A program made the translations under genes and the position numbers. This document shows positions 22,271 to 38,197 of a stretch of 44,950 bases of DNA, one piece after another. The stretch lies in the NCBI GenBank assembly GCA_938027655.1, contig CALJAP010000120.1:1-44950 (forward strand), in the 5' to 3' direction. The DNA comes from an uncultured bacterium. Its GTDB lineage: Bacteria; Armatimonadota; HRBIN16. The first letter of the stretch is position 1, and every line of letters begins with the position of its first letter. The notes under the pieces were generated by a model. It had not been told where the DNA came from. It was given only the letters and a program-made list of their open reading frames with translations, and made no database searches.

Positions 22271-22281
22271 ACACTCCTCAC

Positions 22282-22303: not shown

Positions 22304-22309
22304 CACATT

Positions 22310-22339
22310 AGTATACCACGTTCTCGATGGGCAGGTCAA
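22310..22339 (-). promoter_or_regulatory. rimO promoter
   Basis: Minus-strand TTGACC (22334-22339) and TATACT (22310-22315) are 18 bases apart, 40 bases before the rimO start. Confidence 0.65.
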
Positions 22340-22415
22340 AGGAGGAGGGATGAACTTCCCCGCACGACACTCGTCGGCTCCACAAAGAAGATAGCGAAGA
22401 TATTCAATCGAGCCC

Positions 22416-22444
22416 TTGACAAAGAGCATTTTGTTCGGTAAAAT
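22416..22444 (+). promoter_or_regulatory. rplU-rpmA promoter
   Basis: Consensus TTGACA (22416-22421) and TAAAAT (22439-22444) are separated by 17 bases, 46 bases before the rplU ATG. It is back-to-back with the rimO promoter. Confidence 0.75.
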
Positions 22445-22490
22445 CCTACAGGTGTTTGAACACAATTCGCTGAGAGAAGCGGGGTTGGCA

Positions 22491-22802
22491 ATGGTCGCTG
22501 TCATCAGAACAGGCGGAAAACAGTATAAGGTAGAACCCGATACCATCCTGCATGTGGAAAAACTACCGGTGGAAGAGGGGCAGACCGTCGAGTTGACGGA
22601 GGTGCTGCTGGTGCAGGACGAGAACGGTCTGCGTGTGGGCACACCGACGGTACCCAACGCCAGGGTGGTTGCCGAAGTGGTGCGCCACGTGAAGGGCAAA
22701 AAGATTATCGGGTTCACGTATAAGCCGAAGAAGAACGAGCGACGCCACTACGGACATCGGCAGTGGCAGACCGTTCTTCGGGTTCAGAGCATCGAAGCGT
22801 AG
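22491..22802 (+). CDS. rplU: Ribosomal protein bL21
   Basis: A 103-residue large-subunit protein that binds 23S rRNA. The N-terminus [15 protein letters not shown] and the C-terminal [18 protein letters not shown] are family hallmarks. I start at the ATG before VAVIRTGG; the frame is open further upstream but that part overlaps the promoter. The ribosome-binding site is poor (GGGG about 8 bases upstream). rpmA follows 16 bases later and obg beyond that, the standard order. Confidence 0.95.
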
Positions 22803-22818
22803 AGCGAGGTGAGGTAAA

Positions 22819-23091
22819 TTGGCACACAAGAAGGGTGTGGGTAGCTCCCGCAATGGGCGAGATAGCAAATCGAAGCGCCTTGGCGTGAAGGAATACGCGG
22901 GTGAGTTCGTGAAGGCGGGAAGTATCATCATCCGCCAGCGAGGCACCAAGTTCAAGCCCGGCAGGAACGTGGGCATGGGTGGTGATTACACGCTGTTCGC
23001 CCTGGTGGACGGCGTGGTGAAGTACGAGAGCAGCGACAAGAAGAACCGCCGTGTGAGCGTGGTGCCGACGACAGAAGCGGTTACCGCCTAG
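22819..23091 (+). CDS. rpmA: Ribosomal protein bL27
   Basis: A 90-residue large-subunit protein near the peptidyl-transferase centre. It begins at a TTG codon with GGTGAGGT 3 bases upstream, then [21 protein letters not shown]. There is no N-terminal extension of the sort cleaved in Firmicutes. An intrinsic terminator follows within 25 bases. Confidence 0.95.
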
Positions 23092-23104
23092 ATTGGCGGG
23101 ATGA

Positions 23105-24456
<1,352 letters not shown>

Positions 24457-24457
<1 letters not shown>

Positions 24458-25590
24458 TGGCTTATCGCAGGATGGTGATTAAGGTCGGTACCAGCACGCT
24501 GACGGATGAGACCGGTGCGCTGGACAGGGTGTACATCGCCTCGCTGGCGATGCAATGTGCTGCCGAGTATCGCTCGGGTAGCGACGTGGTGCTGGTGAGC
24601 TCGGGCGCCATCCGTGCGGGCACGGAGCAGTGGGAAAACTATGCGGGGCAAACTGCCGAACCCCTCACGCGCGCAACCATGCCCTTCAAACAGGCGATGG
24701 CAGCCATCGGTCAACCCCTGTTGATGCAGGCGTATCTGGCGGCGTTTGCAGCGTACGACCTGCCGGTGGCACAGGTGCTGCTCACGCGCGAGGATTTCGG
24801 TGAGCGGCATCGCTTCTTGCACGCCCGCAACACCCTGCAGCAACTGCTCAAAATGGGTGTGGTTCCCATTATCAATGAGAACGACACCGTTGCCACCGAA
24901 GAGATTCGCTTCGGCGATAACGATACGCTGGCAGCAATGGTTGCCTCATTGCTGGACGCAGACCTGTTGATTCTGCTCTCGGACGTGGAGGGTCTGTATG
25001 AGCGCGACGAACGCGGGCGTTATACCCGGCTGGTGCGCGAGGTGCATCGGCTGGACGAAAGCATCTGGCGCATGGCGCAGGGTAGTGGTTCGCGCGTGGG
25101 CACAGGGGGGATGATTACCAAACTGCAGGCAGCGCAGATTGCCACTACCTCCGGCGTGACGATGGTGATTGCGCATGGCAGGCATGAGGGGATTATCCAC
25201 CACATCTGCCGGGGGCGCGATTTTGTGGGCACGGTGTTCCACCCGCTGCCTCGCAAACTCTGCCACCGCAAGCGATGGCTGGCATATGGTTTGCCTGCCT
25301 CAGGCACGATTGTGGTCAACGAGGGGGCGAAACAGCGCATCGTCGCCGATGGCAAAAGCCTGCTCCCTGCGGGCGTGCTGTCCTGCGAAGGACATTTCTT
25401 GCCCCAGCAGGTGGTGGAACTGCGCGACGAAAGCGGTCGCGTGTTCGCGCGCGGGTTCACCAACTACAGCAGCGAGGAGATTGCCCGCATCGCAGGCTGT
25501 CAAACCGCGCAAATCGAGCAACGGCTCGGTTTCAAACGCGCCGACGAGCTCATCCACCGCGATAACCTAGTGCTCGTGTACAGCGGGTAG
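24457..25590 (+). CDS. proB: Glutamate 5-kinase
   Basis: A 377-residue enzyme for the first step of proline synthesis. The amino-acid kinase domain has MVIKVGTSTLTDE, LVSSGAIRAG, INENDTVAT and the LLSDVEGLYERD segment. A C-terminal PUA domain (about 280-370, with RIVADGKSLLPAGV and ARGFTNYSSEEIARI) is typical. The ATG overlaps the obg stop by one base; a GTG one codon earlier is an alternative. No proA follows. Confidence 0.93.
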
Positions 25591-25661
25591 GGCAGGATAT
25601 TCCGTCTCCTCTCGCGAATACTTAAATTAAGGTCAAGTCTATTCTGACGGAGGGTCATCGC

Positions 25662-27677
25662 ATGTATCGCGCTATATCGTGCATCATGGTTACCGGAGTA
25701 GTTCTGCTCTCCTTACAGGCGTTGTCTGCGCCTTCGGTTACCATGTCCGACCTGCTGAAGCAAATGGTAGACCTCGAGGCGTTAAGTCTCAAACCCCTAC
25801 CGGGTGAGCGATGCGAACAGGCATCCAGCTACGACCGCGCCAGCCGTATTGTAGACGGCAAGAAAGTGGACTGGTTCGCTAATGCTGACGTTGGGCATTA
25901 CATCCGCGTCGAGGAACGCAACGGGCGCAGGGAGATGGTGATGGCGGATATTCGGGGACCGGGAGCCATCGTGCGCATCTGGTCGGCAAACCCGAAGGGC
26001 GTGCTGCGCATCTACATCGACGGTGCGGAGAAACCGGTAATTGAGAAGGAGTTTCCCAAACTGTTCGACGGTTCGCAAGGGTATCCGTTCGTGCCTCCGT
26101 TTGCAGGGGTGCGTTCCAGCGGAGCAAACATCTATTTCCCCATTCCCTTCGCCAGCCGCGCGCTGGTCACCGTAGAAGGCGGTGAAGGGGTGTTCTACCA
26201 CGTGAACTACCGCCTCTATCCGCCCGGCACACAGGTGGAAAGCTTTTCATGGGAGGCGGTAGAGCGTACGCGCAAACTGGGCGAAGAGGTGGCGCAACGG
26301 CTGACGAAACCCTACGACCTGTGGCGTGCACCGTCCGGCTCGCGAACCCATTCCATCCGCTGGAGCATTCCTGCGGGTGGCTCGCGGGTGCTGAATCTGC
26401 AAGGACCGGCACGCATCGTAGCGATCGAGATGAAACCTCAGGCGAACGACCTACAAAAGGCACTGCGAGCGGCGGTGCTGGAAATCACGTGGGATAACGC
26501 CGTGTTGCCTTCCGTGTGGTCTCCGCTGGGCGATTTCTTTGGCACGGGACCCGGCTTGAACCGCTACCAGGGCTTACCCTGCGGAGTGCTGGAGAACGGG
26601 ACAATGTATAGCCACTGGGTGATGCCTTTTGCCCGGCGAGCGGAGCTGCGGATACGCAACGAGGGCGATGAACCGCTGAACCTGTCGGGTAGGGTGGTGG
26701 TGCAGCCCATGCGCTGGAGCAACCGCTGGATGCGCTTCCACGCACAGTGGCATACGCAATATCCCATCCGCACCCGCCCGATGCGCGACTGGACGATGGC
26801 GGAGGCGCGGGGAACAGGGCGTTTTGTGGGCGTTTCACTCAGTGTAGCCAATCCGGTCAACGTATGGTGGGGCGAAGGCGACGAGAAGTTTTACGTGGAC
26901 GGGGAGCAGTTCCCCAGCACCTTCGGCACTGGCACGGAAGACTTCTTCGGCTACGCCTGGGGCAACCCAACGCCTTTCACACACGCCTACCACAATCAGC
27001 CTCGTGCGGATGGCCCTGGCAGCGCTGGGCACGTGTCCAACAACCGCTTCTTCATCGTCGACAACGTGCCGTTCCAGAACAGCTTCCGGGCGGATATCGA
27101 GGTGTGGCACTGGGCAGAGACGCAAGTAGGCTACAGTGCCATCGGTTACTGGTATGCTGATAGCGAGCAGGGGGCGCGCAGCTTCCCCTCTTTGCAGGAG
27201 CGACTGCCTGTGCAGTTGCCTGAACTGAAAAGTTATCGCGAGCCTGATGCCATTGAGGGCGAGGGGATGGAAGTTCTACGACGCACCGGAGGCAACGTCA
27301 CGACACAGGATATGCAGGGTTTCGGCGAAGCGTGGAGCGGCGGAGCACAGCTGTGGTGGACAGGGACCAAGCCGGGCGACGTGCTGGAACTGGGATTTGA
27401 CGCGCAGAAAGCAGGCACGTATGAGCTGGTTATCGCGATGACCAAGGCGGTAGATTACGGGCAGTTCCGCCTGTCGGTCAACGGCGCGCCGGTCGGCGAC
27501 CAGATAGACCTGTTCAACAACGGAGTGATACACACGGGCAAAATTAGTCTGGGGAAAGTGCAGTTGAAGCAGGGGCAGAACGTATTGCGTGTGGAGGTGG
27601 CAGGCACGAACCCTGCCAGTACCGGCGACCGCCACATGTTCGGGCTGGATTTTATGAAGATAGTGCCGGTTCACTAG
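25662..27677 (+). CDS. Secreted GH172 (DUF2961) glycoside hydrolase
   Basis: A 671-residue exported protein; the signal peptide runs to about ALSAPS and GGAGGG precedes the ATG by 8 bases. The DUF2961 domain (about 45-515), now classed as GH172, shows SSYDRASRI, DWFANADVGHYIRVEE and the hallmark FGTGTEDFFGYAWG near residue 425, which holds a conserved acidic residue. Characterised GH172 enzymes act on alpha-fructofuranosides or arabinofuranosides. A C-terminal beta-sandwich (about 530-671) ends GTNPASTGDRHMFGLDF and looks carbohydrate-binding. It is followed by another glycosidase, so a shared substrate is likely but not known. Confidence 0.85.
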   Translation: MYRAISCIMVTGVVLLSLQALSAPSVTMSDLLKQMVDLEALSLKPLPGERCEQASSYDRASRIVDGKKVDWFANADVGHYIRVEERNGRREMVMADIRGPGAIVRIWSANPKGVLRIYIDGAEKPVIEKEFPKLFDGSQGYPFVPPFAGVRSSGANIYFPIPFASRALVTVEGGEGVFYHVNYRLYPPGTQVESFSWEAVERTRKLGEEVAQRLTKPYDLWRAPSGSRTHSIRWSIPAGGSRVLNLQGPARIVAIEMKPQANDLQKALRAAVLEITWDNAVLPSVWSPLGDFFGTGPGLNRYQGLPCGVLENGTMYSHWVMPFARRAELRIRNEGDEPLNLSGRVVVQPMRWSNRWMRFHAQWHTQYPIRTRPMRDWTMAEARGTGRFVGVSLSVANPVNVWWGEGDEKFYVDGEQFPSTFGTGTEDFFGYAWGNPTPFTHAYHNQPRADGPGSAGHVSNNRFFIVDNVPFQNSFRADIEVWHWAETQVGYSAIGYWYADSEQGARSFPSLQERLPVQLPELKSYREPDAIEGEGMEVLRRTGGNVTTQDMQGFGEAWSGGAQLWWTGTKPGDVLELGFDAQKAGTYELVIAMTKAVDYGQFRLSVNGAPVGDQIDLFNNGVIHTGKISLGKVQLKQGQNVLRVEVAGTNPASTGDRHMFGLDFMKIVPVH

Positions 27678-27726
27678 GCTGTATCCCACGAGCCGCAATC
27701 GGGGGGGAGACTGCTTCGTCGCCGCT

Positions 27727-27795
27727 CTGGAGGGCGAACCTCCCGGTGAGCCGAAAACCGGTGCACCACAACGGCTCGGCAGGAGCCTTGCCATC
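27727..27795 (+). repeat. Palindromic dispersed repeat, copy B
   Basis: The inverted partner of 801-870. The element begins TGGAGGGCGAACCTCC, passes GGTGAGCCGAAAA, and ends CGGCTCGGCAGGAGCC. Its two arms (about 24 bases each) are imperfect reverse complements, so it can fold into one long hairpin. It lies in the 246-base spacer between the two glycosidase genes. Confidence 0.6.
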
Positions 27796-27923
27796 TAGAA
27801 AGCTTATGAACAGAGCGGTTCCACTTGTCTGTCGCTCTGAAACTGTCCAACGCAGTACGTGCAGGCAGAATGCTCTCCAACAGCGTATCTACTCATCAGC
27901 GTTCCATGATAGGAGGTGTGAAA

Positions 27924-30038
27924 ATGGCTTACTGGTGGCTCCTTGTTTCTTGCTTACTGGTAGGCGCCGCGCTGAGCGCGTCGGCTCAGCAGACGCTGTT
28001 CGATTTCGAGAGCGAGGCGCACCTGCAATATGTTGTGCAAAACAGCGTGCAGGCACGGCGAACCTCTGCGGGCGGACAGCTTTCTGGACAGGCTCTGGAA
28101 GTGGAGTTTCGTCCTGCCGAATGGCCCAATGTCACCTTCCGACCGGCTCAGCCTTGGAATTGGGCAGGAGCGGGCGCACTGGCTATCGACATTCATAACC
28201 CCAACGCCGAGCCGGTGTGGTTTGGTATTCGCGTGGACGATGACCCGCGCGCCGATGGCTGGAACTACTGCCGGCAGGCGACCACGACCATCGGGGCAGG
28301 TGAGACGCATACCTACGTGCTGCCGCTGGCTTTCAACCCGATGGACTACGGCATGAGAGGGCTGCCGCCACTGGTGCAGGGTGGAGGCACGCTGCTAGGG
28401 GTGACGAACCCGCATAAGCTGGATGTGAGCCACATTGTGGCGTTTCAGGTCTTTCTCCATCGCCCCGCGAAGCCAACCAAACTGCAGATAGACAACATCC
28501 GCCTCGTGGAGGGTAGTGCGCCCGTTAAGGGCATTGTGGACCGCTTCGGGCAGTGGACGGGGGGCGACTGGCCCGGCAAGGTACACAGCGAGAATGACCT
28601 GATTCGCCGGCGCCAGCAAGAGGAGGCGGAGTTGAGACGGCTCCCCTCACTGCCCGACCGCGACGAGTACGGCGGCTGGAAGAGCGGACCACAGCTGCAG
28701 GCTACAGGCTATTTCCGCGTTGCTAAGCATAATGGCAAGTGGTGGCTAGTTACACCGGCGGGCACGCTGTTCATTTCGATGGGGATGGATTGCGTGCACA
28801 CGGGCGACGCCACCTTCATCACTGGGCGCGAGCAGATGTTCACCTGGCTACCTGAGGAAGGTAGTCCGCTGGCGAAGCACATCGGCTATCATTCCGGTGT
28901 GCATTCGGGCCCAGTGAAAGAGGGCAAGACCATCAACTGGTACGCGCTGAACCTGCAGCGCAAGTACGGAGAGAACTACAAAACGCAGTGGATGCAGGTG
29001 ACTTTGCAAAGATTGCGCTCGTGGGGCTTCAACACCATCGCCAACTGGTCGGACTGGGATTTCCACCGCAACGGCAAGGTTCCGTATGTGGGCACGGCGC
29101 ATATCGGCGGCGACCACGCGCGCGTCGCTAGCGGCGGCGATTACTGGGGCAAGATGCACGACCCCTTTGACCCAAAGTTTGAGCAGAGCGTGCGCAACTC
29201 CCTGCGCCCTGTGGTGCAGCATATCGGGGATGACCCCTGGTGCATCGGCTACTTCGTAGACAACGAGCTGAGCTGGGCGGGTACAGGGGAAGAGGGCGGT
29301 CGCTACGGGCTGGCGTACGGCACGTTGCAAGAGGATGCCGCAAACTCCCCTGCCAAGCGTGCTTTCGTCCAGCAATTGCGCCAGAAATACGGGCAGATTG
29401 AGAATCTGAACGCCGCTTGGGGCACATCCTTCGCCAGCTGGGAGCAGCTGGAACAGCCCCAGAAACTACAACCCCCCTCCCCTGATGCCCGCAAGCAGGA
29501 CTTCGCCGCCTTCGTCAAGAGCCTTGCCCGGCAGTACTTCCGCACGGTGCGTAGCGTGCTGAAAGAGCTTGCCCCCAATCACCTGTACCTTGGCTGTCGG
29601 TTTGCATGGTACGGACCGGATGCGGTAGAAGCGGCGGCAGAGTACTGCGACGTGGTCAGCTTCAACATCTACGCGCCTCGCGTGGAGCGCGAGCGATACG
29701 CCATCGTGGAGAAGCTGGACAAACCTGCCATTATCGGCGAGTTCCACTTCGGCGCGTTGGATAGAGGGATGTTCCACACCGGACTGGTAGCTGCAAAAGA
29801 CCAGCAAGACCGCGCTCGCATGTACAGGGATTACCTGACCAGCGTGCTCACCCATCCCAACTTTGTAGGCTGCCATTGGTTCCAGTACAATGACCAGCCG
29901 CTGACGGGGCGCTGGTTCGACGGTGAAAACTACAATATCGGCTTCGTGACCGTTACCGATACGCCTTATCCCGAAATGGTGCAGGCAGCCAGGGAGATAC
30001 ATGGGATGGCGTATCGCATCCGGGCGGAAGCGCGGTAA
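27924..30038 (+). CDS. Secreted GH50-like (beta-agarase type) glycoside hydrolase
   Basis: A 704-residue exported protein. AGGAGG lies 7 bases before the ATG; the open frame upstream has no such support. Residues 1-22 form a signal peptide ending ALSASAQ. Residues 25-200 look like a carbohydrate-binding beta-sandwich. A clan GH-A type barrel follows, with GTLFISMGMDCVHTG and RSWGFNTIANWSDWDF. The likely acid/base Glu448 is in GYFVDNELSW and the likely nucleophile Glu606 is in AIIGEFHFGA. The resemblance to GH50 agarases is by motif; substrate could be a different beta-galactoside polymer. Confidence 0.8.
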   Translation: MAYWWLLVSCLLVGAALSASAQQTLFDFESEAHLQYVVQNSVQARRTSAGGQLSGQALEVEFRPAEWPNVTFRPAQPWNWAGAGALAIDIHNPNAEPVWFGIRVDDDPRADGWNYCRQATTTIGAGETHTYVLPLAFNPMDYGMRGLPPLVQGGGTLLGVTNPHKLDVSHIVAFQVFLHRPAKPTKLQIDNIRLVEGSAPVKGIVDRFGQWTGGDWPGKVHSENDLIRRRQQEEAELRRLPSLPDRDEYGGWKSGPQLQATGYFRVAKHNGKWWLVTPAGTLFISMGMDCVHTGDATFITGREQMFTWLPEEGSPLAKHIGYHSGVHSGPVKEGKTINWYALNLQRKYGENYKTQWMQVTLQRLRSWGFNTIANWSDWDFHRNGKVPYVGTAHIGGDHARVASGGDYWGKMHDPFDPKFEQSVRNSLRPVVQHIGDDPWCIGYFVDNELSWAGTGEEGGRYGLAYGTLQEDAANSPAKRAFVQQLRQKYGQIENLNAAWGTSFASWEQLEQPQKLQPPSPDARKQDFAAFVKSLARQYFRTVRSVLKELAPNHLYLGCRFAWYGPDAVEAAAEYCDVVSFNIYAPRVERERYAIVEKLDKPAIIGEFHFGALDRGMFHTGLVAAKDQQDRARMYRDYLTSVLTHPNFVGCHWFQYNDQPLTGRWFDGENYNIGFVTVTDTPYPEMVQAAREIHGMAYRIRAEAR

Positions 30039-30045
30039 ACTGCCC

Positions 30046-30074
30046 TTGCCTTCTGCCCGTAGCCGTGCTATACT
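30046..30074 (+). promoter_or_regulatory. Promoter of tRNA-Leu
   Basis: TTGCCT (30046-30051) and TATACT (30069-30074) are 17 bases apart, with the tRNA starting 13 bases after the -10 box. It may also serve lpdA downstream. Confidence 0.65.
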
Positions 30075-30086
30075 TTTTAAGGATGT

Positions 30087-30168
30087 GCCCGGGTGGCGGA
30101 ATCGGTAGACGCACGGGACTTAAAATCCCGGGCCGTAAGGCGTGCGGGTTCGAGTCCCGCCCCGGGCA
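30087..30168 (+). tRNA. tRNA-Leu (anticodon UAA)
   Basis: The acceptor stem GCCCGGG pairs with CCCGGGC and leaves discriminator A. The anticodon stem CGGGA/TCCCG closes the loop CTTAAAA, giving anticodon TAA at 30121-30123. A long variable arm (GGCCGTAAGGC) marks a class II tRNA, and GCGGG-TTCGAGT-CCCGC is the T arm. The full 3' CCA is not encoded. Confidence 0.97.
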
Positions 30169-30203
30169 CATGGTGTGGGTGAATACGTTTGCGAGGAGGA
30201 GCC

Positions 30204-31751
30204 ATGCCACAACCCGAAGCACAAGATACTGCCATCATGGAGCCGCCTGTCAAGACGGCGGATGCTCTCGCCGAAGCAGAACAGTTGCTGGAACGCGCAG
30301 CACGAATGGACCAAGCCCTTCCCCAACAGGAGCCCCAACCACAGGTGCTCCGTTCGGAGCAGTTTGACGTGGATGTGACGTTCATCGGCGCGGGACCGGG
30401 CGGATACGTGGGAGCTATTCGTGCCGCGCAGCTCGGTGGGCGTGTGGTGTGTATAGAAAAAGAGTATCTGGGCGGATGCTGCCTGAACTGGGGATGCATT
30501 CCCACCAAGGCGATGATTGCCGGGGTGGAGCGCTACCAGCAGGTAAAGCACGCTGAGATATTTGGCATCAGCACGGGAGAGGTAAGCATCGACTTCGCGA
30601 AGCTGATGGCGCACAAGGATAAGGTAGTGACTACCCTGCGCAACGGCATCGCCAGCCTGTTCAAGAAGAACGGTGTGCGCCATATCGAGGGAACCGGACG
30701 AATCGCCGGACACCATACCGTAGAGGTCGTCAAGCCCGATGGCTCCAAAGAGACCATTCGCACTCGCGCTATTGTGATTGCGACCGGCTCCGCACCGGTG
30801 CGCCTGCCCATATCTGGTTTGGAAGGGGAGGGCATCTGGACGAGCGACGATGCGGTATCGGCGAAAGAGGTTCCGCCTCGTATGGTGATTATCGGTGCCG
30901 GAGCAATAGGTTGCGAGTTCGGCTATATCTACAACGGTCTCGGCTCCAAAGTAACCGTTGTGGAGATTATGCCGCAGATCCTGCCCAACGAGGACGCCGA
31001 AATCGCCGCCGAATTACAACGCAGCCTGACACGACAGGGCATCCGCTTCCTGATGAACTCGCGCGTCACAGAGGTAAGGCATGGCAAAAATGGCGTCAAG
31101 CAGGTGGTGGTGCAGACCGAGAAGGGCGAGGAGACCATCGAGTGCGAGGTCGTGCTGGTAGCGGTAGGACGGCGTGCGGTGCTGGACGGACTGGGACTGG
31201 AGACGGTGAATGTCAAGACGCATGAGAGAGGCATCGCCGTCAACGACAGGATGGAGACCAGCGTGCCGGGCATCTACGCTATCGGCGACGTAACCGGACG
31301 CATCCAGCTGGCGCACGTGGCGTCCATGGAAGGCATCGTGGCGGCGAGCAACGCGATGGGACAGGAGCGACGCATGAACTACCGCGCCGTGCCCAGCTGC
31401 GTCTACACCGTGCCGGAAGTGGCATCGGTCGGGCTGACGGAACAGCAGGCGCGCGAGCAGGGATATGATGTGCGTGTGGGTAAATATGCCTTTCGCGGAC
31501 TGGGCAAAGCGATGGCGATGGGCGAACGCGAAGGGCTGGTGAAGGTGGTTGCGGAGGCACGATATGGAGAGATACTGGGCGTGCACATCGTGGGTCCCCA
31601 CGCCACCGACCTGGTCGGCGAGCCGGTGACCGCCATCCAGCTGGAAAGCACTGTCGAGGAAATGAGCCATACTATCCATGCCCATCCGACTCTCACCGAA
31701 GCTCTACTGGAAGCTTACGAAGACACCGAGAGGATGGCTATTCACAAGTGA
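30204..31751 (+). CDS. lpdA: Dihydrolipoamide dehydrogenase (E3) with N-terminal extension
   Basis: A 515-residue flavoprotein disulfide reductase that reoxidises lipoyl groups of 2-oxoacid dehydrogenases or the glycine system. The FAD motif FIGAGPGGYVGA is at residues 60-71, the redox pair Cys93/Cys98 in GGCCLNWGCIPTKAM, the NAD motif IIGAGAIGCEFG follows, and the active-site His is in HAHPTLTEALLEA. GAGGAGGA precedes the ATG. The first 53 residues are an extra Glu/Gln/Pro-rich helical segment not found in ordinary E3; it has no lipoyl-Lys motif. The next gene overlaps it by 4 bases. Confidence 0.9.
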   Translation: MPQPEAQDTAIMEPPVKTADALAEAEQLLERAARMDQALPQQEPQPQVLRSEQFDVDVTFIGAGPGGYVGAIRAAQLGGRVVCIEKEYLGGCCLNWGCIPTKAMIAGVERYQQVKHAEIFGISTGEVSIDFAKLMAHKDKVVTTLRNGIASLFKKNGVRHIEGTGRIAGHHTVEVVKPDGSKETIRTRAIVIATGSAPVRLPISGLEGEGIWTSDDAVSAKEVPPRMVIIGAGAIGCEFGYIYNGLGSKVTVVEIMPQILPNEDAEIAAELQRSLTRQGIRFLMNSRVTEVRHGKNGVKQVVVQTEKGEETIECEVVLVAVGRRAVLDGLGLETVNVKTHERGIAVNDRMETSVPGIYAIGDVTGRIQLAHVASMEGIVAASNAMGQERRMNYRAVPSCVYTVPEVASVGLTEQQAREQGYDVRVGKYAFRGLGKAMAMGEREGLVKVVAEARYGEILGVHIVGPHATDLVGEPVTAIQLESTVEEMSHTIHAHPTLTEALLEAYEDTERMAIHK

Positions 31752-32242
31752 GCGAGATGGAGAGCGAGGAGAGCAAGCAGACGCCAACACGACGTGCGCT
31801 GGTGGTAGGGTTGCGCCTGCCTCCGGATATGATGGACCGTGCCGAATACATCGCTGCGCTATCGGGAGCGTCGTTGAAGGGGATGTTTCGCCGGTGGATT
31901 AGCCATGAGCTGCAGCGCGACCCTCGCTGGAGCTCTGGGGTGATCGAGTGGAACGAGGCGAACGCGCGGCGTGCCCCTGCCTGCGCGGCGGTGTATCGCT
32001 TCCGTGATGCGCAGTATCAGGTGCTGTACGTGGGCTTTGAACCCCAGAATCTGCAGCAGAGGCTGCTGGAGCACTGGCGCACAGGGGATGTCCCTGACGC
32101 TCGCTATGTCAGCTATCTGCCGGTGACCAGCATGGCGAAGGGCAAGGAGGTACAACAACGCCTCATTGCCCGCACCAAGCCTCTCTATCAGGTACAGGAA
32201 GAGGGCGAAGGCAAAGCAGAAGAGGACTCTGGTGAGGAGTAG
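31748..32242 (+). CDS. GIY-YIG-like nuclease-fold protein
   Basis: A 164-residue protein. Residues 15-60 (RRALVVGLRLPPDMMDRAEY) look like a ribbon-helix-helix or similar small DNA-binding unit. Residues 78-150 resemble a GIY-YIG fold: AAVYRFRDAQYQVLYVGFE, then an Arg in QQRLLEHWRTG and a terminal TKPLYQ. The catalytic Glu expected near the C-terminal helix may be in KGKEVQQRLI. The last residues are very acidic. The GTG start overlaps lpdA by 4 bases; an ATG three codons on is possible. Function is not known and nuclease activity is unproven. Confidence 0.6.
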   Translation: MSEMESEESKQTPTRRALVVGLRLPPDMMDRAEYIAALSGASLKGMFRRWISHELQRDPRWSSGVIEWNEANARRAPACAAVYRFRDAQYQVLYVGFEPQNLQQRLLEHWRTGDVPDARYVSYLPVTSMAKGKEVQQRLIARTKPLYQVQEEGEGKAEEDSGEE

Positions 32243-32366
32243 TAATACCGGACCACATGTGATCATCTGGATACGAGTGGAGCAATTCCGCGTGCCTGTT
32301 ACTCTGAACGTAGCCGCAACCTTCAGGTGACGACAGGTTCTGAACACGTGTTCGACGAGGGATGCC

Positions 32367-33419
32367 ATGAGGGCTGTACATCTCTTACTGATACTGAGTG
32401 CGCTGGCGTTGCTGAGCGCGTGTGCGAAAAAGCCGTCTGCGCCCACGTCGGGTGAAGCCCCGGCGGGAGAGAAGAAGAAGCTGCGCGCGGCAATGGTGAC
32501 CGATATTGCCGGTATCGGTGACCGTTCGTTCAACGAGTCCGCATGGCGCGGCTTGCAACGTGCGCAGAAGGAGCTGGGCGCGGAGGTGCGCTTCCTTGAG
32601 TCCGCCAAGCTGCCCGACTACGAGCAGAACCTGCGTCTGCTGGCACAGCAGAAATACGACGTAGTTATCGCGGTAGGCTTCGCGATGGAGGACGCGCTGA
32701 AGAAGGTGGCTCCGCAGTTCCCAAACGTCATCTTCGCTATCGTGGACGGCAACGCGCCCGACCTGCCCAACTGTGTATCGCTGAAGTTCCGCGAGCACGA
32801 AGGCTCGTTCCTTGTCGGCGCGCTGGCGGGCGCGATGACCAAAACGAACATTGTCGGCTTCGTAGGGGGGATGGAGATACCCCTTATCAAGAAGTTCGAA
32901 GCGGGCTATCGCGCGGGCGTGATGACCATGAACCCGAAAGCGAAGGTGCTGGTCGGCTATACCGGTAACTGGACGGACACCGCCAAAGGCAAAGAACTCG
33001 CCCTGTCGCAGTTCGAGCGCGGAGCGGATATCGTCTACCATGCCTCCGGTCAGTGCGGCTTGGGCGTTATCGAAGCGGCGAAAGAGCGGGGCAAAGGGCA
33101 CTTCGCCATCGGTGTGGACTCGGATCAGGACTATATCGCGCCCGGCTTCGTGCTGACCAGCATGATTAAAAGCGTAGACAATGCGGTTTTCGGCGTATGT
33201 CAGTCGGTCGTAGAGGGCACGTTCCAGCCCGGCACGCGCGACCTAGGCATCAAGGAGCAGGGCGTCGGTCTCAGCCCAATGCAGTATACGAAGCATCTTG
33301 TGCCCCAAGAGGTGCTGAACCGGATAGAGACCCTGCGCCAGATGATAGCGGACGGCAAGCTGAAGGTTCCGCAGAGCGAGGAGGAGCTGAAGCAGTTTGG
33401 GCCTCCGGCTATACCGTAG
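32367..33419 (+). CDS. BMP-family (BmpA/PnrA-type) substrate-binding lipoprotein
   Basis: A 350-residue exported lipoprotein; the lipobox is LLSAC with Cys19, followed by a Lys/Pro/Ala linker. The BMP domain begins KLRAAMVTDIAGIGDRSFNESAW and includes VGFVGGMEIPLIKKFEAGY, YHASGQCGLGVIEAA and AIGVDSDQDYIAPG. Characterised members bind purine nucleosides and feed ABC transporters, but no ATPase or permease gene is next to it. The ATG follows GAGGGATGCC. The upstream 124 bases hold no feature I can name. Confidence 0.88.
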   Translation: MRAVHLLLILSALALLSACAKKPSAPTSGEAPAGEKKKLRAAMVTDIAGIGDRSFNESAWRGLQRAQKELGAEVRFLESAKLPDYEQNLRLLAQQKYDVVIAVGFAMEDALKKVAPQFPNVIFAIVDGNAPDLPNCVSLKFREHEGSFLVGALAGAMTKTNIVGFVGGMEIPLIKKFEAGYRAGVMTMNPKAKVLVGYTGNWTDTAKGKELALSQFERGADIVYHASGQCGLGVIEAAKERGKGHFAIGVDSDQDYIAPGFVLTSMIKSVDNAVFGVCQSVVEGTFQPGTRDLGIKEQGVGLSPMQYTKHLVPQEVLNRIETLRQMIADGKLKVPQSEEELKQFGPPAIP

Positions 33420-33435
33420 GATAGGAGGAGAGAGG

Positions 33436-33975
33436 ATGGCTGTACCCAAATACCTGCCGCATTACACATACTCCGACTACGTGCAGTGGCAGGGTCGTTG
33501 GGAGATCATCGACGGCATCCCCTTCGCCATGAGCCCCCAACCCTCTTTCCGGCACCAGCGTATCTCGCACCGCATCGCCGCGGAACTGGAACGCGCGCTC
33601 GAAGGATGCGAACACTGCCGGGCGGTGTTGCCGGTGGACTGGAAAATCGCCGAAGATACGGTGGTACAGCCCGACAACATGGTGGTATGCGGAGAGGTGA
33701 CCACCGAGGCATATCTGGACAGACCGCCCGTGCTCATCTTTGAGATACTCTCGCCGTCTACCGAACAAAAAGACCGGTTGGTCAAGGCGGAACTCTATGC
33801 GTCGCAGGGCGTCCAATACTATGTGATAGTAGACCCCGACCTCTTGCAGGCGGAGGTAATGGAACTTCAGAAGGGGGAATACCGGCTACGGGCAACGCTA
33901 CATGAGGAAACATGGCGTTTTGACCTCGGCGAGTGCAGGATAGAGATGGACTTCGGTCGGCTGTGGAGGCTGTGA
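33436..33975 (+). CDS. Uma2-family (DUF820) putative endonuclease
   Basis: A 179-residue protein of the Uma2/DUF820 family, which has a PD-(D/E)XK-type fold. Matching segments are YEIIDG-like WEIIDGIPFAMSPQPS, VVQPDNMVVCG with the acidic residue, and PPVLIFEILSPSTEQKDRLVKAELYA containing the E-x-L-S-P-S-T core. These features are known; the cellular role of the family is not. GGAGGAG lies 6 bases before the ATG and the gene starts 16 bases after the BMP lipoprotein. Confidence 0.82.
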   Translation: MAVPKYLPHYTYSDYVQWQGRWEIIDGIPFAMSPQPSFRHQRISHRIAAELERALEGCEHCRAVLPVDWKIAEDTVVQPDNMVVCGEVTTEAYLDRPPVLIFEILSPSTEQKDRLVKAELYASQGVQYYVIVDPDLLQAEVMELQKGEYRLRATLHEETWRFDLGECRIEMDFGRLWRL

Positions 33976-34006
33976 AGGTCTTAAATGTTTCTTATCACAA
34001 AAAGCG

Positions 34007-34034
34007 TATCATAAGAGATGCAGAACGTTCTGCA
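34007..34034 (+). promoter_or_regulatory. Putative -10 box and 16-bp perfect palindrome upstream of STAS-Usp gene
   Basis: TATCAT at 34007-34012 may be a -10 element. TGCAGAACGTTCTGCA (34019-34034) is a perfect 16-bp palindrome ending 13 bases before the start codon. Its core differs at one base from the repeat in front of acnA at 6796-6807. It looks like a repressor operator; the regulator is unknown. Confidence 0.45.
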
Positions 34035-34047
34035 GAGGCGATGAAGC

Positions 34048-34833
34048 ATGATTGTAGAAGCACGCAACGATACGGTCAACCTGCTGGGTGCGCTGACTAA
34101 AAATCACTGGCAAACGATTAAGGCGGCGGCGAACCTGCTGCTGAAACGGAACCCGGCGGGTATTATCATCAACTGCTCTGGCATCACCGAGTGCACGGAA
34201 GAGGGCGCGGAGACCTTCGCCGATGCGCAGGCGTACATCCAGAAGCACGGCGCGCGCATTGTGCTCTGCGACATCCCCGAGCATGTGATGGAGGTGCTCC
34301 GTCGGGTGCCGGGTGTACGCTCGCAGTTGCCCGTTGCCTGCACGATGGCACAGGCGCGCGCCTCGCTAGGATTGCCCAGCGCGTATGAGACCACAGAAGC
34401 CCCCACCGAGAAAATCGTGCTGCTGCCCGTCTGGGAGGGGATGAACGCGCCGTACGCTGCCCAGCACGCCCTGCACATGACCAAAGACCAGCACGCGGTT
34501 CTGCACATCGTGTACATCCTGCTGGTGCCGCAGAAACTGGCTCTCACCACCCCCATGCCCGAACAAGAGGAGAGGGCGCATCGTACCCTGACCGAGCTGG
34601 AAGAGATGGCGCGTCGCGCCCGGGTGAAGGTGGAAAAGCGGGTGGAACGCTGTCGCGACCTGGCGCGAGGCATCGTCACCGCGGCGGAACAGGAAAGAGC
34701 AAGCCAGCTGATTTTGGGAATCACGCCGGGCGACATGTCGGCAGCAAACGGCTTGCTGACCACCGTGTTGCAGAAAGCGCCCTGCGAGGTGCTGGTGGTG
34801 CGCGCCCCGGCAGCGGTGGGGCAGACGGGGTAA
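34048..34833 (+). CDS. STAS domain - universal stress protein fusion
   Basis: A 261-residue two-domain protein. Residues 1-108 fold like an anti-sigma-factor antagonist STAS domain (IIINCSGITECTEEGAETFADA). Where SpoIIAA-type proteins have the regulatory DSSG serine, this has TEEG (Glu51-Glu52), so phosphorylation control is missing or mimicked. Residues 121-255 are a UspA-like domain (KIVLLPVWEGMNAPYAAQHAL and ending APCEVLVVRAP). The Usp ATP-loop GxxGx9GS is not seen (LGITPGDMSAANGLLTTVL instead). Cytoplasmic; partner unknown. Start chosen by the first ATG after GCAGAGGCGATGAAGC. Confidence 0.7.
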   Translation: MIVEARNDTVNLLGALTKNHWQTIKAAANLLLKRNPAGIIINCSGITECTEEGAETFADAQAYIQKHGARIVLCDIPEHVMEVLRRVPGVRSQLPVACTMAQARASLGLPSAYETTEAPTEKIVLLPVWEGMNAPYAAQHALHMTKDQHAVLHIVYILLVPQKLALTTPMPEQEERAHRTLTELEEMARRARVKVEKRVERCRDLARGIVTAAEQERASQLILGITPGDMSAANGLLTTVLQKAPCEVLVVRAPAAVGQTG

Positions 34834-34856
34834 AGCTGCGTCTACTCCCTCCGGCG

Positions 34857-35293
34857 TTACCGTTTCAGCACCTTTTTCACGTCCAGCCACCCCGCATACA
34901 GGATGGGTATCTTGCGCCGATTGTCCCAGTGCAGGCGGACACCTGCTGCTTTGCACAAGCGGCGTAACGATACGTAATCTACTCCATTATGTTGCAGCTT
35001 GTCAGAAGATTGCAAGCGTCCGTAGAGTAGATGCTTATCCGCACCGGCACATCCCTCGTCTGGGCACTGTCCAGCCTGTACTGAAACGACGTGTCGCACA
35101 CCTCTGGACGGTCAGGGTCCGATTAGCCACTTCGCCGGATGTCACACATTGCATGGGCTGACTATCGGTCAGGTTGCTGTCCGATTGCACGTGGATGGCA
35201 GTGACGATTTGTTGGGCGCAGAGGGGCGTAGCGAACCACAGCAGAAGCGCACTCAGTACCCCCCGGTTGGAGTAGCAGAGTGAAGTGTTTCAT
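34857..35293 (-). pseudogene. Frameshifted exported stalk-domain (copper amine oxidase N-like) protein
   Basis: An ATG with AGGAGGT 7 bases upstream starts MKHFTLLLQPG. A run of six G then shifts the frame: removing one G gives VLSALLLWFATPLCAQQ, a perfect signal peptide. That frame continues to about 35095, and a second shift is needed to enter the frame that ends KLQHNGVDYVSLRRLC and HWDNRRKIPILYAGW. This last part is a copper-amine-oxidase-like 'stalk' domain (PF07833 type). With an intact ribosome-binding site and signal peptide but two shifts, I call it a pseudogene; a sequencing error in the G run could explain one of them. The surrounding 550 bases hold nothing else coding. Confidence 0.65.
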
Positions 35294-35322
35294 TCTGGTT
35301 ACCTCCTTTGAAGGGGTATCGT

Positions 35323-35342
35323 ACCTGTAGTAGAACACAGGT
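35323..35342. promoter_or_regulatory. ACCTGT-N8-ACAGGT inverted repeat
   Basis: A perfect 6-8-6 inverted repeat lies 30 bases upstream of the pseudogene start. It could be an operator for that gene. No convincing promoter was identified with it. Confidence 0.3.
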
Positions 35343-35383
35343 TACAGGAAACGTCAATCTACTGCCCCGACAAACCACTCTGC

Positions 35384-36229
35384 CTACTTCCTCCCCTTAC
35401 ACAACGGAAGCAAGCTCATCTGTCGTTTTTCGAACACCGCTACCTCGCGGAAGCCGATGTCCCATGCCATACGCACCGCGTCCAGCAGATAGTGCGCCAG
35501 TTCATCGGGGTGGTGGGCGTCGGAGCCGAAGGTAATCAGCCTGCCGCCGCGCTCGTAGTACCACTCCAGCGTTTGTCGGCAGGGGTAAAAGTCGCGAGCA
35601 TCCTGTCGCAGACCGGCGGTGTTTATCTCCAGCGCGGTGCCCTTTTCTACCATCAGGTCAAACAGCGTGAACAGCAGGTCGCGATAGGGTTGCGGGTCAA
35701 ACGCGCCGAAGCGAGGCACACCGCGCCGCTTGGCATATTCCAGATGCCCCACGATATCGATTAAGCCGCTCTCCACCGAGTGCAACACTTCCTCGTAGTA
35801 GCGGGTATATGCCTCGCGTGCGGTGGGGAAACGCTCTACGTAGTCGTCGGTCATCAGCATTCGGGCATCCACGTAATGCACGCATCCCAGCACATAGTCG
35901 AAAGGGTACTGGCTGAGCCACACGCGCACATCCGGCTCGAACCACTGCTGATAGTCTATCTCCACGCCCGCGCGGATGCGCAGTCGTCCCCGGAACAGGT
36001 CGCGCACGTAGGCGATTTCGTCCATGAACAGGTCGTAGTCGAAGTATTCCACCACGGGGTCGTTGGGATCAAAATCCTTGTGCTCGGTGAAGCCAATTTC
36101 ATCCAGCCCAAGGGCCATCGCACGGGCGCAGTGTTCCAACATTGTCGCACGCCCATCGTGTGACAGGAAGGTGTGCACCTGATAGTCTACCTTTGTATAC
36201 TCTGCCTTGCTACTCCAGCCCATTGACAC
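35384..36229 (-). CDS. PHP-domain phosphatase (histidinol-phosphatase HisK-like)
   Basis: A 281-residue PHP-fold metal-dependent phosphoesterase. The metal-binding motifs appear in order: VDYQVHTFLSHDG, IGFTEHKDF, AGVEIDYQ, LGCVHYVD, VGHLEYAK and TFGSDAHHP. This set matches HisK/YtvP histidinol-phosphatases, which dephosphorylate histidinol phosphate, but other PHP phosphatases share it. No other his gene lies nearby. The GTG start has GAGGG 5 bases upstream and overlaps the preceding gene by 20 bases; an ATG two codons later is possible. Confidence 0.82.
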   Translation of the reverse strand: MSMGWSSKAEYTKVDYQVHTFLSHDGRATMLEHCARAMALGLDEIGFTEHKDFDPNDPVVEYFDYDLFMDEIAYVRDLFRGRLRIRAGVEIDYQQWFEPDVRVWLSQYPFDYVLGCVHYVDARMLMTDDYVERFPTAREAYTRYYEEVLHSVESGLIDIVGHLEYAKRRGVPRFGAFDPQPYRDLLFTLFDLMVEKGTALEINTAGLRQDARDFYPCRQTLEWYYERGGRLITFGSDAHHPDELAHYLLDAVRMAWDIGFREVAVFEKRQMSLLPLCKGRK

Positions 36230-36698
36230 TTATTCCCTCGACATCGATCACGCGCCATTTTTCGGCAGGAAACACCAGCCACTTGCGAGCAGGCTCTTTA
36301 CGCAGTTTCACCTGGATATCTGTTGGCTCGTGGCGGCTGACCAAGCCCTGTTCTTCCCACCACGCCTCCACACGCATATTGACCGTTGCCTCTTTGCCGA
36401 TAATGTTAACGAACGGGGTAGTGTAGCGCACATGCGGGCGGATACCGCGACGAAACGCCGACGCCAATTCGATGCGCAGCCGTTCGGGTGAATAGCCAAA
36501 GGCATCGAAATCGTTGGAGATGGCGTCCATCAGCGTGTTGAGGTCACGCCCTTCTATTGCCTGGCGGATTTCCTCCAGCCGATTTCGTACCACTTGCTCT
36601 TCGGACGGGGTAGGTGTTGCCGCGATACGCCACAGCACCAGCAGCGCTGCTATCAGCACTGTTGCCCCAGAGATAGCCAACCAGGTGGAACGTTTCAT
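36210..36698 (-). CDS. Membrane-anchored NTF2/SnoaL-like protein
   Basis: A 162-residue protein with one N-terminal transmembrane helix (about 7-26) or uncleaved signal. The rest resembles a small NTF2-like alpha+beta barrel: EEIRQAIEGRDLNTLMDAI followed by beta strands with VNMRVEAWWEEQ and KWLVFPAEKWRVIDVEG. No catalytic residues are recognisable, so it may be a binding or accessory domain. GAGGGAGCGG precedes the ATG and a good promoter lies upstream. It is cotranscribed with the PHP phosphatase. Confidence 0.65.
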   Translation of the reverse strand: MKRSTWLAISGATVLIAALLVLWRIAATPTPSEEQVVRNRLEEIRQAIEGRDLNTLMDAISNDFDAFGYSPERLRIELASAFRRGIRPHVRYTTPFVNIIGKEATVNMRVEAWWEEQGLVSRHEPTDIQVKLRKEPARKWLVFPAEKWRVIDVEGISVNGLE

Positions 36699-36730
36699 TC
36701 CGCTCCCTCTCGCAGGTTTATGCTGCTGAG

Positions 36731-36760
36731 ATTATACCGAAAAGGGCAGGTCGTAGCCAA
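36731..36760 (-). promoter_or_regulatory. Promoter of the NTF2-like / PHP phosphatase pair
   Basis: Minus-strand TTGGCT (36755-36760) and perfect TATAAT (36731-36736) are 18 bases apart, 33 bases before the start codon. Confidence 0.65.
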
Positions 36761-36819
36761 CTGATGCACCGGCAAGTTGTCAACACGACCCATCACCCTA
36801 CCAGTCGTGCCCATGTAGC

Positions 36820-36945
36820 CGCAGGCTTTAGCCTGCGCACCGTCCCGCCATGTAGCCTGCGCCTCTACACATCGGCAAGCCTGCGCTCGTTCCTGCCATG
36901 TAGCCTGCGCCCCGTCCCGCTATGCTGCCTCTACACATCGGCAAG
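36820..36945. repeat. REP palindrome and 66-bp partial tandem duplication beside the RAYT gene
   Basis: GCAGGCT-TT-AGCCTGC (36821-36836) is a REP hairpin. Downstream, an 18-base block beginning CCTCTACACATCGG occurs at 36862-36879 and again at 36928-36945, 66 bases apart; the second copy contains the RAYT stop codon. CCATGTAGCCTGCGCC is also repeated. The pattern indicates duplication of the gene end together with REP sequence. Confidence 0.6.
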
Positions 36946-37416
36946 TACCTCTCGCAGGTCTACCCCAATTGCTCCAGTATACGAATACTCATCCCACTGC
37001 GCCACTAAACCCTTCCGTACGGGGTTATTCGCCACATATTTTATCTGTGCTTTCACATCTTCGTCTTTCCGCATTACATGGTCGTAAAAATCTTTCTGCC
37101 ATCTACATCCCTGTTTCTGAGCCAACCAGAAGCCACTTCGCTGCTTGAACTGCACCACGGCGCGCCACAAATCGGCTTCAGCAGACCGTCCCTGCAGAAT
37201 CAAATGCAGGTGGTCAGGCATGAAACAGTAGATAAGAACAATGCACCGGTGTTCATCACAAGATCGATGCAGCATTTCGATCAAAATGTGAACCGTCTCA
37301 CGCGGCTGGAAACCCGGATATCTGTCTTTCAGACAGAGCGTAAAAGCGGCAATCACTTCCCCTCGATAGGCTTCCCGAGGGAGACGATGTTTCTGTTCCC
37401 TCACGAGGTGAGCCAT
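36931..37416 (-). CDS. REP-associated tyrosine transposase (RAYT, IS200-like Y1)
   Basis: A 161-residue HUH-superfamily protein. The HUH motif is YCFMPDHLHLIL (His69, His71). The catalytic tyrosine is most likely Tyr127 in QIKYVANNPVRKGLV, by comparison with E. coli TnpA-REP Tyr115. I start at the ATG in MAHLVREQKHRLPRE, which has GGGAGG 5 bases upstream. RAYTs are domesticated single-copy enzymes thought to spread REP sequences. REP-like palindromes lie on both sides here in opposite orientation, which supports this reading over an ordinary IS200 transposase. No terminal IS ends are seen. Confidence 0.85.
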   Translation of the reverse strand: MAHLVREQKHRLPREAYRGEVIAAFTLCLKDRYPGFQPRETVHILIEMLHRSCDEHRCIVLIYCFMPDHLHLILQGRSAEADLWRAVVQFKQRSGFWLAQKQGCRWQKDFYDHVMRKDEDVKAQIKYVANNPVRKGLVAQWDEYSYTGAIGVDLREVLADV

Positions 37417-37469
37417 AAGTTCCTCCCTGCCTTCTGTCGATTCGGTCTTGTGCCCTTTGCGCAATGGCA

Positions 37470-37546
37470 CGCAGGCTGAAGCCCGCGGCGACAATGGGCG
37501 ACTATGGGCGCATGACAATACCATCGCGCAGGCTGAAGCTACAATG
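37470..37546. repeat. Two REP sequences upstream of the RAYT gene
   Basis: CGCAGGCTGAAGCCCGCGGC (37470-37489) and a shorter CGCAGGCTGAAGCTACAATG (37527-37546) are direct copies. The minus strand at 36820-36837 reads CGCAGGCTAAAGCCTGCG, so REP copies flank the transposase in inverted orientation. ACAATGGGCG follows the first copy. Confidence 0.6.
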
Positions 37547-37555
37547 CACCATCTT

Positions 37556-38197
37556 TTACCATGTGAATATCTCCCCCTCCCCCAGCAACCGCACTACTAC
37601 CAGATAGCCAAACCGCCACTCGATCACCACGGGCGAACGCTCCACCACGTTGCTGACCCCGCGCGTGCCGAGCGTCAGCGTCTCGCCGTGTAACGCCCAT
37701 TTCAGCCCCTCGGTGCGCACACCGTCCACATCCCCCAGAGGCAAAAGCGAAACGGTTGTCCCTGCCGGCGCATCAAACCGCAACTGGCGATGGGCGAAAT
37801 AGGTGATGGAGTGGTCTTCCACGAAGCGAATGAAGGCTCTGTCCGCATACCGCACCGCGCCACAGACGTTACCCAGCACGTGGTCGATGCGGTCGCCCGT
37901 CGTGCCTACCACAACCACCTGCGGCTGGCTCCAGCGTGTGACCGCGAAGCGCAACGCCTTCTCCAGGTCGGTGTCGTCCTGTCCGGGGTCGTGCACAATG
38001 CTCTCAAGAGGCAATGAGTGCAGCAACTCGGCAGGCACGGAATCGAAATCCCCCACCACGTAGTCGATACGCAAGCCCGCCTCGCGCAGGCACACTGCTC
38101 CTGCGTCCGCGCCAATCAGCACCTCAGCCCCTGCCGCGACCGACTCGAGCAGTTGCCGCCGCGGCGGTTGACCGTTCAGCATAATCAGAACGCGCAT
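37556..38197 (-). CDS. thiN: Thiamine pyrophosphokinase
   Basis: A 213-residue enzyme that makes thiamine diphosphate from thiamine and ATP. Active-site motifs are IGADAGA, VVGDFDSVP, DPGQDDTDLEKAL and GTTGDRIDHVLGN. A C-terminal beta-sandwich binding domain includes SLLPLGDVDGV and GTRGVSNVV. The ATG follows AAAGGAG closely. It stands alone; no TPP riboswitch is visible upstream. A neighbour upstream is divergent. Confidence 0.92.
   Translation of the reverse strand: MRVLIMLNGQPPRRQLLESVAAGAEVLIGADAGAVCLREAGLRIDYVVGDFDSVPAELLHSLPLESIVHDPGQDDTDLEKALRFAVTRWSQPQVVVVGTTGDRIDHVLGNVCGAVRYADRAFIRFVEDHSITYFAHRQLRFDAPAGTTVSLLPLGDVDGVRTEGLKWALHGETLTLGTRGVSNVVERSPVVIEWRFGYLVVVRLLGEGEIFTW

Follow-up and report, generated by a model that had tools for sequence, protein, structure and literature searches.

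We describe a gene for a REP-associated tyrosine transposase (RAYT) in a 44,950-nt stretch of DNA (the window) from an uncultured bacterium of the Armatimonadota, together with a palindrome that recurs across the host genome. With a probability of roughly 0.87, in our estimate, gene and palindromes make up a GTAG-type RAYT-REP system (a REPtron), in which one RAYT is accompanied by about 200 intergenic REPs and REPINs and which follows a REP code conserved throughout the RAYT lineage. The system is a RAYT-REPIN system of known kind and, as far as our literature searches go, new for the Armatimonadota, a phylum that joins the hosts found with a genome rich in REPINs. A constant REP code alongside a half-drifted protein amounts to a clean natural experiment, in which the free central base pairs serve as an internal control: the pattern of constancy predicts which DNA positions the protein reads, and it is in line with what in vitro selection showed for a distant RAYT.

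Background

In the literature, RAYTs figure as domesticated transposases, and their REPs as diverging together with them. The window is contig C120 (CALJAP010000120.1) of a 3.53-Mb, 219-contig genome that is 98.95% complete (GCA_938027655.1; hereafter G000), and by RpoB the host groups with Armatimonadota and Fimbriimonadales (SH-aLRT 100). An earlier reading of these letters without database searches (the sequence-only reading) had proposed a lone RAYT bracketed by its own REP-like palindromes. Comparisons with the literature below draw on parts of the texts of PMC3116915, PMC3733652, PMC6006769 and PMC8266576.

The gene and its protein

The open frame of the RAYT gene reaches 37524 (ORF 36931-37524, 197 aa), passing through decayed REPs on the way; homology begins at the ATG at 37416, which is therefore the likely start (Table 1). 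The protein scores above the cut-off of the NCBIfam model for REP-associated tyrosine transposases (NF047646; 92.7 bits, cut-off 80) and of Pfam Y1_Tnp (PF01797; 34.2 bits, cut-off 23). An AlphaFold2 model from a 39-member alignment (mean pLDDT 91.3) finds its best solved-structure match in 4er8, a complex of E. coli TnpA-REP with a REP hairpin (TM 0.71, 2.7 Å, 19% identity in the structural alignment), followed by the IS608 and ISDra2 transposases; 4er8 was also the only match in a sequence search of the PDB.

The gene has an HUH motif and a single predicted catalytic Tyr in its Y1 domain, a combination expected of a RAYT. Both HUH histidines (His69 and His71) are present in 64/64 members of the lineage, and the predicted catalytic Tyr127, 58 residues past His69, is a Tyr in 63/64. 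In E. coli TnpA-REP, the GTAG tetranucleotide is contacted by W94, Q95, E100, H101 and R104 (PMC6006769, in the part covered). By alignment these residues are kept in the window RAYT, with D in place of E100, and both this D and the Q occur in 64/64 lineage members. Homology and the predicted fold thus confirm the protein as a RAYT, a putative HUH/Y1 REP-associated tyrosine transposase, and the sequence-only reading had named the gene correctly.

Table 1. Features in and around the RAYT gene, in window positions.
Feature	Position	Strand	Remark
g162, 162-aa unknown gene	36210..36698	-	downstream of RAYT
Intact type-A REP GTAGCCGCAGGCTTTAGCCTGCG	36815-36837	+	GTAG foot, 7-bp stem, TTTA loop; RAYT 3' side
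Collapsed REP GTAGCCTGCGC	36852..36862	+	hairpin gone between two TAGCC repeats
19-bp direct repeat GCCTCTACACATCGGCAAG, first copy	36861-36879	+	outside the gene
Second collapsed REP GTAGCCTGCGC	36900..36910	+	
19-bp direct repeat GCCTCTACACATCGGCAAG, second copy	36927-36945	+	contains RAYT stop codon
RAYT gene, 161 aa	36931..37416	-	stop TAG 36931-36933, likely ATG 37414-37416
Predicted catalytic Tyr127 codon	37036..37038	-	in YVANNP
W-Q-K-D-F-Y-D-H-V-M-R	37069..37101	-	aligned on W-Q-P-R-F-W-E-H-A-I-R of 4er8
HUH motif D-H-L-H-L	37201..37215	-	aligned to 4er8
Decayed REP	37470..37492	-	GTCG foot, one stem mismatch; RAYT 5' side
Truncated REP GTAGCTTCAGCCTGCG	37527..37542	-	no stable hairpin
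TPK (thiamin pyrophosphokinase) gene	37556..38197	-	upstream of RAYT

Palindromes and a direct repeat at the gene

The intact REP on the 3' side of the gene folds as single-stranded DNA (-8.4 kcal/mol, z -3.1). Its foot and those of the decayed and truncated REPs on the 5' side all point outward from the RAYT, in agreement with the opposite orientations reported by the sequence-only reading. In the window alone these palindromes are weak evidence (three matches to the 18-mer at up to 3 mismatches versus 0.65 expected), and it is the genome-wide counts that settle their reality. As the 5'-side REPs are decayed, the RAYT may be inactive or idle.

The two copies of the direct repeat lie 66 bases apart, the second enclosing the stop codon; a direct repeat of at least 19 bases arose in 0 of 2,000 first-order resamples of 36700-37600. 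The block had been described as 18 bases long; its duplication, spacing and stop codon hold, and its size is 19.

REPs and REPINs across the genome

The sequence-only reading had suggested a genome-wide search for the palindrome, with two outcomes that would speak against it: no further REPs, or many copies of the transposase gene. The 18-bp palindrome, with up to 2 mismatches allowed, occurs at 163 sites, versus 1 for the reversed pattern, and the footed family GTAGCCGCANNCTTYAGNNTGCG (GTAGCCGCA-NN-CTTYAG-NN-TGCG, with free central dinucleotides) has 209 exact copies, versus 0 for the reversed control. The figure of 209 is probably a lower bound, as REP clusters frequently lie at contig ends (e.g., C10, C29, C105, C117, C148). 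The gene itself is single-copy. G000 holds one RAYT of the window lineage (NF047646 gives four matches there, only the window's above cut-off); "lone" is correct in that sense, though not for RAYT-like genes at large, since there is also a broken RAYT on C99 and a distant relative on C28.

These counts bear on a rival candidate, an ordinary insertion sequence of the IS200/IS605 type that would carry subterminal hairpins and move as one piece. Such an element would share the HUH/Y1 superfamily of the window protein, as the Pfam Y1_Tnp match and the IS608 and ISDra2 structures illustrate. However, hairpins are found without the gene in about 200 places, no ortholog or near-identical copy of the gene was found in nine congeners, and the Y-x3-N-P and WQ...DH..R motifs are RAYT-like and differ from the Y-x3-Q given for IS200 in the motif table of PMC6006769. 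We rejected this candidate on copy number and consider it very unlikely.

The arrangement of the copies was analyzed in the window plus 48 fetched stretches (49 in all, 242,580 bases), which contain 154 of the 209 exact copies. By crude ORF calls in 47 of the 49 stretches, holding the same 154 copies, 8/154 REPs fall inside called ORFs versus 81% of random positions; a 20-40-bp palindrome with a GTAG foot, mostly intergenic and in high copy number, is what is called a GTAG REP. The first central dinucleotide is GG in 102 of the 154 copies (type A) and AC in 44 (type B). Types A and B stand inverted to each other with their feet outward, mostly as a 55-bp unit (GTAGC-CGCAGGCTTYAGCCTGCG-N9-CGCAACCTRAAGGTTGCG-GCTAC), and many copies form such inverted A-B pairs, i.e., REPINs. 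There are 39 exact A-B pairs genome-wide (reversed control, 0), and in the fetched stretches the spacer is exactly 9 nt in 28 of 39 close inverted pairs. The length of this spacer is fixed and its sequence is not; some spacers recur on unlinked contigs (CCAAAGGCA is common to C29, C115, C149 and C201), as expected if the A-B pair moves as a unit. Neighbors within 200 bp are oriented HH in 42 cases, HT in 30 and TT in 25. An impression from the list of type-A copies, that clusters are only head-to-tail, was dropped, the inverted partner being type B. The base preceding the foot is a T in 49/55 type-A copies (counting one per cluster and strand).

Could the hairpins instead act on transcription, as terminators or attenuators whose place next to a Y1 gene is accidental? 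They are intergenic and sit mostly between genes of the same direction (56 sites unidirectional, 10 convergent, 8 divergent), as terminators might. Against this stand the strict GTAG foot, the TTYA loop, the A-B pairs at fixed spacing and the lack of a T-run after the palindromes displayed; variation is moreover confined to two central pairs, and the palindrome matches a RAYT lineage across phyla (below). This explanation is extremely improbable.

Local repetition and decay of REPs

Many clusters repeat a REP or REPIN together with locus-specific neighboring DNA. The upstream 20-mers of successive type-A copies within clusters are at least 70% alike in 23/46 cases, versus 24/1485 between clusters (median similarity 0.675 and 0.30, respectively). 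Local repetition is not universal, as half of the within-cluster cases reach this level. The duplicated 19-mer at the RAYT stop codon looks like an instance of this genome-wide repetition of REPs with host DNA; the 3'-end duplication pointed out by the sequence-only reading is real and, on this view, not special to this gene.

Collapsed REPs (GTAGCCTGCG) number 13 in the same 49 stretches, versus 4 for the reversed control. They lack exactly the hairpin between two TAGCC repeats, and several continue with the usual spacer and a type-B REP. Examples of collapsed REPs can be seen in stretches L139 and L167.

In the RAYT-REP system that we propose, the RAYT would very probably bind the REP as a single-stranded hairpin by its GTAG foot, CGCA..TGCG outer stem and TTYA loop, and Tyr127 would very probably cut and rejoin strands, acting in trans on the roughly 200 intergenic REPs. 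What moves is probably the REPIN of 55 bp, in which type A, the 9-nt spacer and an inverted type B follow one another. REPs would multiply locally with adjacent host DNA, which would account for the duplicated 19-mer at the 3' end of the gene, and would decay by loss of the hairpin between short repeats. Direct results here are the gene with its predicted fold and aligned residues, the number and REPIN arrangement of the copies, the covariation and the tie to one RAYT lineage. We infer catalysis, binding, cleavage, mobility and a host benefit, and local repetition would be driven by the RAYT rather than by replication slippage. No empty/filled pair was seen for any one REPIN, so movement was not observed directly.

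A shared REP code beside RAYTs of many phyla

Among named genomes, a scan turned up relatives of the window RAYT, 36-56% identical to it, at 74 loci; phyla were taken from submitters' record titles and NCBI ranks, plus unranked groups. We searched the 500-bp flanks for hairpins by form only, requiring a perfect stem of at least 8 around a 2-nt loop and a GTAG or GTGG foot. This gave 133 footed hairpins at 47/74 loci (69,421 bases), versus 29 in 333,725 bases lying beyond 1 kb; 27/74 loci had none in their 500-bp flanks under this strict definition. The sequence of these hairpins is nearly uniform: the foot is GTAG in 131/133 hairpins, the outer stem C-G-C-A is found in 130, 130, 126 and 132 of 133, position by position, and the loop is TT[TC]A in 130/133 (TTTA 90, TTCA 40). 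Stem positions 5 and 6 alone vary freely (GG, AC, AG, GC, CC, AA, GA and others). When pairing is not required, the two central dinucleotides are complementary in 67/71 distinct cases, versus a shuffled mean of 21.3 and maximum of 34 (10,000 shuffles). Almost no change is seen in the foot, the outer stem or the TTYA loop, and the central two pairs vary with compensation.

Exact family copies lie beside RAYTs at 40/74 loci in 13 phyla plus unranked groups, to which the window adds the Armatimonadota; at the locus of the nearest relative (L055, 55%), imperfect versions flank the gene on both sides. To the sequence-only reading the locus had looked like an independent example of RAYT and REP, a view that the presence of the same hairpin beside 36-56% identical RAYTs in so many phyla does not support. 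In the 49 genomes searched, starting from 50 of the 74 loci, exact motif copies were present in 37 (2 to 160 each; control, 0); the motif was absent wherever the RAYT of the lineage came from an Armatimonadota genome that was searched (G120, G125, G126, G127, G129). Among RAYT pairs that are 40-50% identical, 296/545 share an identical REP, 284 of these with hosts of different or unranked phylum (the window REP was entered as one sequence).

In this lineage the recognition code has stayed the same in many phyla, even where the proteins differ by about 50-60%, an unusually conserved code compared with what published RAYT work would lead one to expect. A further idea, to which we give somewhat less than an even chance, is that of a portable REP code in a lineage spanning at least 14 phyla, whose cassette could pass between phyla and seed REPINs on arrival. 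If true, proteins that are 50-60% different should still cut each other's REPs, in contrast to Pseudomonas and Stenotrophomonas, whose REPs have been described as turning over fast.

Exact REP copies number 0-16 in the nine congeners, and any copy at all was found in 2/71 same-phylum genomes outside the genus. Other RAYT lineages of the phylum carry other palindromes (GCGGAAGC..GCTTCCGC in G001, GTAGTGCACGCTTTAGCGTGC in G006): the REP tracks the RAYT lineage, not the host. Copies nevertheless persist or arise without this RAYT, as the congeners that lack it show. Such copies would suit a view of the REPs as selfish or structural repeats spread by recombination and slippage, with the RAYT a bystander or domesticated for another host function. 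REP clusters repeat host DNA, as slippage could, and broken syntenic junctions (below) carry REPs, so that recombination may act there. The same view leaves unexplained why the palindrome is in 37/49 relatives' genomes versus 2/71 non-genus genomes of the phylum, why REPINs have recurring 9-nt spacers on unlinked contigs, and why the loop bases that hardly vary are those on which a Marinomonas RAYT was found to depend (PMC8266576, in the part covered). We regard it as unlikely.

Two further RAYT-like genes in G000 have palindromes of their own. L129 (C99:1275-1607) is a broken RAYT of another lineage, near the RAYT of the congener G003 in the tree and flanked by a palindrome of the GGCTCGGC-GGGAGCCTCGCC type; L130 (C28:1141-1326) is a distant RAYT-like gene in a 251-aa frame, with the recurrent palindrome GGGGCGCAC.... 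In G001, the RAYT L024 has ten recurrent flanking GCGGAAGC..GCTTCCGC copies, whose foot is GGACT-like rather than GTAG. By our script's criterion, a recurrent palindrome is present at 20/42 loci from other genomes of the phylum and absent at 22, at least one gene having been entered twice.

Comparison with known systems

The system resembles that of E. coli TnpA-REP (4er8) in the HUH-Y1 fold, aligned GTAG contacts, single copy and bracketing footed hairpins, and the REPs of E. coli in forming many intergenic inverted pairs that combine two subtypes (Y and Z in E. coli); it differs in having a perfect stem and TTYA loop, with no AA-GC bulge. The group 3 REPtron Mb of Marinomonas sp. MWYL1, described in the covered part of PMC8266576 (2021), shares the GTAG foot, perfect stem and TTTA loop, with a 5-bp stem 2 bases from GTAG where ours has 7 bp and 1 base. 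In vitro, T12, T13 and A15 of its loop are essential to the Marinomonas RAYT and position 14 is free; the latter is the loop position that varies between T and C here (a comparison of loops, the proteins' kinship aside).

The GTAG families surveyed by Di Nocera and co-workers in 2013 (PMC3733652, in part) come from several phyla, including Planctomycetes and Verrucomicrobia, and likewise show dimers, clusters reiterated with flanking DNA, and stem sub-families with alternative complementary residues. The likeness to these families, for which that paper gives 24 consensus sequences, is one of description, and our REP may be among them; in the text of that paper, as far as covered, neither Nitrospira* nor Armatimonad* occurs. 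The TnpA-REP subclasses of PMC6006769 (2018, in part) similarly have a patchy multi-phylum distribution and subclass-specific REP types. The Y motif of our lineage, Y-I-L-[DNEQ]-N-P, is nearest to subclasses 2.7 and 2.4, and the combination of DHxH, WQ and YILxNP exactly fits no row of Table 1 there, compared by eye and including 2.2, 2.4, 2.5 and 2.7. The REPINs of PMC3116915 (2011) are also units of two inverted REPs (unit definition from PMC6006769, both in part), whereas here the unit is a heterodimer of two subtypes, mostly of 55 bp, in the Armatimonadota.

Literature searches, whose scope lay outside subscription papers and preprints, found no instance of the exact REP letters, of RAYT and REP sequences with Nitrospirae, or of Armatimonadetes with repetitive extragenic palindromes; among the matches listed for RAYT or interphylum literature from 2018, a cross-phylum REP code was absent.

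Ancestry of the RAYT

In 80 same-phylum relatives, the best match to the window RAYT scored 69 bits, with identities of at most 41%, and its best match outside the phylum was to Nitrospirae (55%), which first suggested transfer into this host from another phylum. We gave this claim up because RpoB places the host in the Armatimonadota, Fimbriimonadales RAYTs belong to the lineage, and a tree joining the window with ten Armatimonadota rows as one clade is not rejected (p-AU 0.66, with an even higher likelihood). Around the window's RAYT, the tree of 93 RAYT rows is weak; it omits 20 loci (duplicates or fragments) and rows below 95 bits other than L129, L024, L029 and L130. Two of the ten Armatimonadota rows are titled Methanoregulaceae and were counted by that genome's RpoB. 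Loci L095 and L112 come from a record titled Methanoregulaceae archaeon isolate SJ84; the RpoB of the L095 genome is nearly identical to a Fimbriimonadaceae one, and the record looks mislabelled.

A single clade of Nitrospirota RAYTs is rejected (p-AU 5e-7), which may have come about by transfer or paralogy or from an error of binning. Somewhere the lineage has probably crossed between phyla, and whether the RAYT came into this host in that way is undecided. Earlier work has already put forward horizontal spread for RAYTs (PMC6006769, in part; PMC2817692 for a Thauera case). The exact type-A REP also occurs in 21 IMG/VR contig stretches (L277-L297), 0/21 of which matched three RAYT queries, and plasmid records gave six weak matches (26-35% identity); across these IMG/VR stretches and plasmid records no vehicle for RAYT-REP spread was found.

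Gene neighborhood and genome assembly

The TPK gene is present in 9/9 congeners, with no RAYT found adjoining it, and is followed by a symporter gene in 8/9. In a comparison of relatives at the locus, as the sequence-only reading had advised, no RAYT was found there, and a REP is present between TPK and symporter in G002 and G008 (decayed). The other congeners have no REP at the TPK 3' end, and there is no clean single-REPIN empty site. In G000 the symporter is on C110, about 40 bp past a REP (region C110:55-119).

On the other side, a PHP-family gene comes next after g162, and g162 is conserved elsewhere in the congener G006. Window positions 19056-36698 align to 53.1-73.7 kb of G006 contig C4, and the TPK side aligns in reverse to 37.7-31.7 kb of the same contig. 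The gene that follows g162 in G006 is found in G000 at C3:31954, past a REPIN cluster (region C3:31825-31954). Two junctions intact in G006 are thus broken in G000, with REPs at all four broken ends and the RAYT at one join. The simple reading is recombination at REPs; misassembly at repeats is possible. Contig ends fall within or beside REP clusters on C1, C10, C12, C24, C29, C49, C87, C88, C105, C110, C117, C148 and C149, and REPs seem to break this assembly.

Elsewhere in the window, positions 34048-34833 encode a universal stress domain after a weak STAS-like domain (24 bits, cut-off 29.2), in a single 261-aa protein.
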